In this document: one piece after another, positions 5,085 through 38,420 of the stretch
Numbering within the stretch: the first letter of the stretch is position 1
Layout: each line of letters starts with the position of its first letter
Assembly: GCA_001871495.1 (NCBI GenBank)
Contig: MNVG01000042.1
Coordinates: 1-39,006, forward strand
Direction: 5' to 3'
Source: Candidatus Micrarchaeota archaeon CG1_02_51_15
Lineage (GTDB): Archaea; Micrarchaeota; Micrarchaeia; Norongarragalinales; UBA8480
DNA length: 39,006 bases
Notes under the pieces: generated by a model
Databases searched by the model: none
What the model was told of the DNA's origin: nothing
Seen by the model: the letters and a program-made list of their open reading frames with translations, nothing else
Translations under genes and position numbers: made by a program

Positions 5085-5252
5085 TGGGCGAGAAGGGATT
5101 TTCCTTTCCCAGTCGAAAGGGGACTGCAAGTTCCCTTTCTTTTTGGGGTATTGAAAGACCTTTTTCTTTTGGGAAAGAAAAAGGGATTTCATTTGAACCC
5201 TTGGCCGCCCGATTATCAGTCGGGTGCTCCAACCAGACTAAGCTACTCGCCC
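5085..5252 (-). tRNA. tRNA-Ile(GAU) with a 93-nt intron in the T arm
   Basis: Acceptor stem halves GGGCGAG (5246-5252) and CTCGCCC (5086-5092) pair perfectly, with A as discriminator at 5085. The anticodon arm is CCCGA-CTGATAA-TCGGG, giving anticodon GAU. The T arm begins AAGGG-TTCAAA and finishes T-CCCTT only after about 93 extra bases (5099-5191 if cut at position 59/60; an AAAT repeated at both ends leaves a few bases of ambiguity). Removing that stretch gives a normal 75-nt tRNA. The intron ends can pair with each other (CTTTCCC with GGGAAAG plus flanking T-A pairs). No canonical 37/38 intron is present. Confidence 0.85.
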
Positions 5253-22371: not shown

Positions 22372-22618
22372 GCCGGGTTGGCAGAGCGGTTATCGCGCCA
22401 GTGACCTTTTTTGGTCTCGCTTCGCTTGGCCTGCGGGCCTTTGCTCGCAAGCCCAAAAAAGCTCAACCAAAAAAGGTTGGCGAACCTTGAGAGCTGGTTT
22501 CCGAAAGGATACAGGAGTTCGAAGCCCATCCCCTTTTTCTTAGAACGAAAAAGGGTCTGGTCGAACCCCCAAAAAGAAGGCTTTTTGGAGGAATCAAAAG
22601 AAAATCTCCTACCCGGCG
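22372..22618 (+). tRNA. tRNA-Ser(UGA) with two non-canonical introns
   Basis: Acceptor halves GCCGGGT (22372-22378) and ACCCGGC (22611-22617) pair perfectly, with discriminator G as expected for serine. The anticodon stem CCAGT/GCTGG encloses loop CTTGAGA (anticodon UGA) after removal of about 83 nt (22403-22485). The long variable arm TTTCCGAAAGGATAC marks a class II tRNA. The T arm AGGAG-TTCGAA...T-CTCCT is interrupted by about 81 nt (22524-22604), near position 59/60. The mature length would be 83 nt. Within intron 1, ACCTTTTTTGGT and ACCAAAAAAGGT can form a 12-bp helix. Exact cut sites may shift by a few bases. The 3' end overlaps the convergent radical SAM stop codon. Confidence 0.75.
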
Positions 22619-38313: not shown

Positions 38314-38420
38314 TAGCCCCGAGCGGATTCGAACCGCTGTCAACGGGTTTCCTCCTATTCCTTCTTGGAAGAAGGAAAACGCTCAAAGCCCGTTATCCTT
38401 GGCCGCTAGACGACGGGGCT
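38314..38420 (-). tRNA. tRNA-Gln(UUG) with canonical 37/38 intron
   Basis: Acceptor halves AGCCCCG and CGGGGCT pair, with discriminator A. The T arm GCGG-TTCGAAT-CCGC is uninterrupted. The anticodon arm is ACGGG-CTTTGA then a 34-nt insert (38349-38382), then A-CCCGT, giving anticodon UUG after splicing at 37/38. The intron forms a hairpin (CCTTCTT with AAGAAGG). A TATA-like TTTCATAAAATAA lies about 25 bases upstream. Confidence 0.85.

Follow-up and report, generated by a model that had tools for sequence, protein, structure and literature searches.

The window, meaning the whole 39,006-nt stretch of DNA analysed, contains a tRNA-Ser(UGA) gene interrupted by two introns (Table 1). The initial annotation had proposed that this 247-nt locus resolves to an 83-nt class II tRNA once about 83 and about 81 nt are removed, and splicing confirmed both the lengths and the coordinates, with three exons (30 + 39 + 14 nt) forming a class II product that carries the anticodon UGA. 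In the spliced molecule the acceptor stem spans 7 bp and the anticodon and T stems 5 bp each, the anticodon stem being CCAGC/GCUGG with the loop CUUGAGA; together with a long variable arm and G73, this is what is expected of an archaeal tRNA-Ser. The predicted interruption of the T loop by about 81 nt was borne out, at 59/60, whereas the other interruption, previously placed near the 5′ side of the anticodon loop, actually interrupts the anticodon stem, in its 5′ strand, at 30/31. As read from the sequence, the boundaries of both introns can be fixed to within 1–2 nt.

Table 1. Features of the tRNA-Ser(UGA) locus and of a related tRNA gene in the same window (BHB, bulge-helix-bulge).
Feature	Position	Strand	Remark or basis
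tRNA-Ser(UGA) gene with two introns	22372..22618	+	247 nt; read and spliced from sequence
Exon 1 (tRNA positions 1-30)	22372..22401	+	30 nt
Intron 1 at 30/31	22402..22484	+	83 nt; perfect BHB
Intron 1, central BHB helix, 5′ strand (CGCC)	22396..22399	+	BHB scoring
Intron 1, central BHB helix, 3′ strand (GGCG)	22479..22482	+	BHB scoring
Intron 1, 13-bp intron helix, 5′ arm	22403..22415	+	BHB scoring
Intron 1, 13-bp intron helix, 3′ arm	22466..22478	+	BHB scoring
Family B module (GACCTTTT...AAAAGCTCAACCAAAA)	22403..22472	+	motif and pattern searches
Exon 2 (positions 31-59)	22485..22523	+	39 nt; anticodon TGA at 22488-22490
Intron 2, T loop, 59/60	22524..22604	+	81 nt; position 60 is U in intron-free relatives
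Family A module of intron 2	22524..22577	+	covariance model R1, alignments
Exon 3 (position 60 to discriminator G73)	22605..22618	+	14 nt
tRNA-Ile(GAU) gene	5085..5252	-	T-loop intron 5099-5191 with the same family A module

Excision of both introns restores a complete tRNA, as is characteristic of archaeal BHB-type tRNA introns. ARAGORN calls a tRNA-Ser(tga) once both have been taken out, and it finds no tRNA in the unspliced gene or when only one intron is removed. In the raw window the gene was missed by both ARAGORN and Rfam, an empty result that is misleading about this locus. A group I intron or another Rfam family was considered for the locus and set aside, as low-threshold Rfam searches gave only chance-level matches (E 0.18 and 0.71).

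Intron 1 displays the archaeal BHB architecture in full, with a 4-bp central helix (CGCC:GGCG) and two 3-nt border bulges (AG^U and AA^C), and direct scoring against the BHB rule yielded one clear solution, at 30/31, with 13 contiguous intron-helix pairs. The perfect 12-bp self-complementary pair noticed earlier in this intron (ACCTTTTTTGGT / ACCAAAAAAGGT) is real and lies inside the 13-bp intron helix. Of 20,000 dinucleotide shuffles of intron 1, 1.6% produced a central helix of 4 bp at one or another of three junctions, and 0.005% (about 5e-5) combined it with an intron helix of at least 6 pairs. Junctions 29/30, 31/32, and 32/33 were rejected for their poorer motifs.

Intron 2 lacks a strict BHB at its borders. 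Its best junction, 59/60, offers UUC:GAA plus a G-A mismatch, that is, three of the four central pairs, with no intron helix there, and only a relaxed form of the motif is possible; junctions 58/59 and 60/61 gave poorer motifs than this. Given the 3-bp central helix and the lack of an intron helix at the junction, excision of intron 2 would be less certain than that of intron 1. Several other T-loop introns of the genome, which terminate in CGAAAA^U or UGAAAA^U, conform better to the BHB rule than intron 2 does. It is conceivable that the T-loop interruption represents two introns, tandem or nested, that are removed in two steps. Such an arrangement would fit the weak motif at the single junction, the two hairpins held by intron 2 (the first of which is able to pair with the T-loop exon), and the presence in tRNA-Ser(GCU) of two modules in tandem within one interruption; against it, no second BHB pair could be recognised inside intron 2 by reading the sequence alone, and it is regarded as quite improbable. 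One 81-nt intron is the preferred reading.

Uninterrupted tRNA-Ser(UGA) genes occur in three genomes of the same order (G012, G018, and G023) and align without gaps to the spliced model, with 67–68 of 83 positions identical. In G001, which belongs to the same genus, the gene carries a 15-nt canonical 37/38 intron instead, and once this is removed 74 of the 83 positions agree. Since G001 has this intron in place of those at 30/31 and 59/60, a change of intron content has taken place within the genus. The D-stem mismatch A12-C23 of tRNA-Ser(UGA) is also found in G001 and G015 and is therefore unlikely to be a sequencing error. According to the initial annotation, a separate intact tRNA-Ser(UGA) gene would have spoken against its interpretation; none was found in the assembly (1.13 Mb in 56 contigs, 91% complete, so that a second copy could sit in the missing part), where the five matches to the spliced exons comprise three from this gene and two chance 14-nt hits.

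These observations bear on whether the locus is a decayed pseudogene, in which the insertions destroyed tRNA-Ser(UGA) and another tRNA serves the UCA codons. Such decay would account for the two insertions and for the failure of generic tRNA finders, but it is at variance with the spliced stems, which are all intact save for the one A-C pair common to relatives, with the absence of another tRNA-Ser(UGA) gene from the assembly, and with the perfect BHB of intron 1. Moreover, a T-loop intron at or near 59/60 was seen in at least 17 of the 35 tRNA genes detected in this genome (loci assigned by reading; the census, made with generic tRNA models, is a minimum). With so many genes carrying the same kind of T-loop intron, pseudogenization would imply that the whole tRNA set has decayed, and it is considered very unlikely. 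A functional, spliced gene is thus the favoured interpretation. Other interrupted genes include that for tRNA-Ile(UAU) (L026, G000:C20), whose T loop is interrupted by well over 200 nt and whose anticodon loop holds a second intron, and, within the window, a tRNA-Gln(UUG) gene at 38314-38420 (minus strand) with a canonical-looking 37/38 intron.

The splicing endonuclease, whose subunit type had been singled out earlier as worth inspecting, is encoded by a single locus in the genome, as detected by Pfam search, and is of the epsilon-2 (ARMAN) type. This 385-aa protein is a single three-unit chain that aligns nearly end to end with ARMAN-2 epsilon-2 (PDB 4fz2; phmmer, residues 11-385, E=4e-119), and the catalytic triad Y236/H251/K282 and the ARMAN loop Y160/K161 all fall on identical residues (numbering from PMC12397907). 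Judged by this enzyme, the closest named genomes are those of Candidatus Micrarchaeota. A gene for the RtcB ligase is present as well. Cleavage of BHB and BHL introns at a range of positions has been demonstrated for the epsilon-2 (ARMAN) enzyme (PMC4033280, PMC12397907), non-canonical introns are among the substrates of enzymes of this type (PMC4033280), and multi-intron tRNAs are listed for ARMAN-1 and ARMAN-2 (PMC4033280). The ARMAN-2 system (PMC12397907; PDB 4fz2, 9w2k) shares with the present one the enzyme type and the ARMAN-specific loop; unlike here, no intron family or shared module is mentioned in the available part of PMC12397907. The notion that two introns outside 37/38 require an endonuclease of relaxed specificity is supported, with a refinement: both introns do lie outside 37/38 and an epsilon-2 enzyme is encoded, but only intron 2 needs relaxed motif recognition, because intron 1, despite its unusual position, forms a canonical BHB.

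Family A, to which intron 2 belongs, is a dispersed group of structured introns. Alignment of intron 2 with the T-loop introns of tRNA-His, tRNA-Ile(UAU), tRNA-Ile(GAU), and tRNA-Ser(GCU) beats all 1000 shuffles, and a covariance model of the family, R1, was built with seven copies as input. Its best ten matches in the genome (E<=1.8e-12) all fall inside tRNA genes, nine in number and assigned by reading, namely in the T loops of tRNA-His, tRNA-Ser(GCU) (two in tandem), tRNA-Ile(GAU), tRNA-Ser(UGA), tRNA-Ile(UAU), one tRNA-Arg, and one tRNA-Leu, and in the anticodon loops of tRNA-Arg(UCG) and tRNA-Glu(CUC). A match at E<=0.01 was obtained in 31 of the 60 genomes searched, this genome included. 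Inspection of 22 matches from this and other genomes placed about 19 in or overlapping a tRNA gene (by reading), two outside tRNA genes (both in G027), and one in an unclear context (G005). Among 47 distinct copies, standard pairs fill 97.2% of the pair cells of the hairpin, and two-sided changes occur at 13 of its 14 pairs; a one-column slide of the partners reduced the latter number to 3–5. As the alignment was fitted to R1 itself, this covariation count is biased in favour of the structure. The 54-nt module is identical in tRNA-Ile(GAU) and tRNA-Ser(GCU).

Family B, represented by intron 1, is treated as distinct because local alignment of introns 1 and 2 revealed no similarity (130 of 1000 shuffles were equally good) and intron 1 gave no match to R1 at E<=0.01, although the two are alike in layout. 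Within the genome, the 3′ motif of intron 1 occurs with at most one mismatch in exactly three places, all of them tRNA introns, namely those of tRNA-Ser(UGA), tRNA-Ser(CGA) at 37/38, and tRNA-Gly(CCC) at 37/38 (by reading). The full pattern GACC-UUUU...AAAAG-CUCRACCAAAA (GACCUUUU...AAAAGCUCRACCAAAA) gave 26 exact matches in 7 of the 60 genomes, and its reversed control gave 0 in the same set. The contexts, as read, include rRNA genes (G009, G012), tRNA genes (G000, G013, G016), and a tandem array (G012). Some one-mismatch matches (L156, L167, L170, and L284), which appear to lie in coding or intergenic sequence, were disregarded. In 25 distinct copies, some of them drawn from a looser pattern, the closing pair is C-G in 15, U-A in 9, and unpaired in 1, and the family conserves unpaired sequence outside the stem. 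In intron 1 of tRNA-Ser(UGA), the strand CCUUUUUUGG serves both the module stem and the BHB intron helix, so that only one of the two can form at a time.

Further arrangements of such modules have been observed in relatives. The family B module recurs as tandem repeats of 47 nt at two contig ends in G012, the end of C1 (L281) and the start of C6. Several U-rich hairpin modules lie within an apparent 16S rRNA (L273 and L166, G009:C63), which suggests multiple rRNA introns of the same kind. In a tRNA-Ser gene of G013 (L136, from 1501), a long stretch (GACGTCGCAGTTTTTCTCCTCGCCCTTCGTGGGCTCGTCGATAAAACTGCTCGTGCCCCT) is nearly the same in the anticodon-loop intron and the T-loop intron, as though one of them had given rise to the other within the gene.

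The likeness among these introns might also result from convergence of independent, ordinary BHB introns, U-rich hairpins being simple structures that the splicing enzyme may prefer. The low complexity of the stems, the two of 22 inspected R1 matches outside tRNA genes, and the many weak R1 matches on the opposite strand of palindromic hairpins would be compatible with this explanation. It accommodates less readily the identical 54-nt module of tRNA-Ile(GAU) and tRNA-Ser(GCU), the conserved unpaired sequence of family B with its empty control, the occurrence of family members at different positions (30/31, 37/38, the T loop, and rRNA), and the stretch shared by the two introns of the G013 tRNA-Ser; convergence is accordingly held to be unlikely. 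Joining of unrelated sequence into the gene during assembly, a concern because this Micrarchaeota genome is a MAG, is extremely improbable, for the exons continue exactly at both junctions, the modules of the introns are found again on further contigs and in other genomes, and 30/31 fits the BHB rule exactly.

It is thus highly probable that tRNA-Ser(UGA) is a working gene, and probably the only one of its kind in the genome, whose two introns would be cut by the epsilon-2 enzyme and whose exons would be joined by RtcB, the introns themselves being copies of structurally conserved families that have spread among the tRNA genes of this lineage and, in relatives, into rRNA genes. The transcribed precursor is expected to fold first; the endonuclease would then cut the strict BHB of intron 1 at 30/31 and the relaxed T-loop site of intron 2 at 59/60, after which RtcB would join the exons. 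The existence of the two families points to introns having been copied from gene to gene, for example by reverse splicing followed by recombination, and suggests that introns of these families can multiply like mobile elements. Such copying has been reported for Thermoproteales. More tentatively, and plausible without being favoured, Micrarchaeota may host small mobile RNA intron families that encode no protein, with the covarying module promoting its own spread through tRNA and rRNA genes and the host epsilon-2 enzyme and RtcB removing the insertions. Within such a mobile-intron reading, the module would be laid out as a closing helix, a pyrimidine mismatch, a U-rich/A-rich stem, and then an ACC-A-rich segment. 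The module might contribute to splicing, to movement, or to both.

Archaeal BHB introns at non-canonical positions were reportedly described by Marck and Grosjean in 2003 and by Sugahara et al. in 2006–2009. The reviews PMC4090602 and PMC4033280 describe similar positions, strict and relaxed motifs, and several introns per gene, and 30/31 and 59/60 are both among the known intron positions in PMC4090602. Since both intron positions and this type of enzyme had been described before, the gene structure itself is not new in kind. The published non-canonical introns come mainly from Crenarchaeota and Nanoarchaeota, whereas those of tRNA-Ser(UGA) belong to structured families. The transposed introns of Thermoproteales (a 2010 study, as cited in PMC4090602 and PMC4033280) likewise resemble one another while sitting in different tRNAs, and at different positions, within one lineage, and similar introns do occupy different tRNA genes and positions here. 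However, Thermoproteales belong to another phylum, the present genome falling outside that order with Micrarchaeota as its closest named genomes by endonuclease, and in the present case conservation of a covarying module extends through a class, with rRNA introns involved as well. No report of families A and B was found in the main texts of the open-licence papers covered, which is weak evidence of absence. The added value is that, on sequence comparison, each of the two tRNA-Ser(UGA) introns belongs to a dispersed structured family.

Interrupted tRNA genes have often been treated as isolated oddities, whereas many of those in this one genome share a few structured families. With families recurring across a class and in rRNA genes, the origin and movement of archaeal tRNA introns become directly testable. 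These families also tie intron load to a broad-specificity endonuclease and account for the genes that standard tRNA finders overlook in these genomes.

The rtcB gene (L235:1375-2838, G000:C37) contains an in-frame TAA within a short insertion. Taking out 27 nt (TCTCCTTAAGTTATTAAGGGGCCTTAA) restores HEG-Y-GFPIGG, a stretch that close to 30 relatives have unbroken. The junction conforms to a BHB, in which the central helix AGGG:CCTT includes one G-U, the bulges are AT^T and AA^A, and the intron helix has 8 bp. The insertion is likely to be an mRNA intron within the very gene that encodes the splicing ligase. Short insertions bearing stops are also seen in rtcB of L266 (G047), L267 (G015), and L270 (G026), located near HEGY/GFPIGG in G026 and near GVGY/DINCG in G015 and G047. 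In several other relatives, rtcB appears to carry inteins at DINC/GVR.
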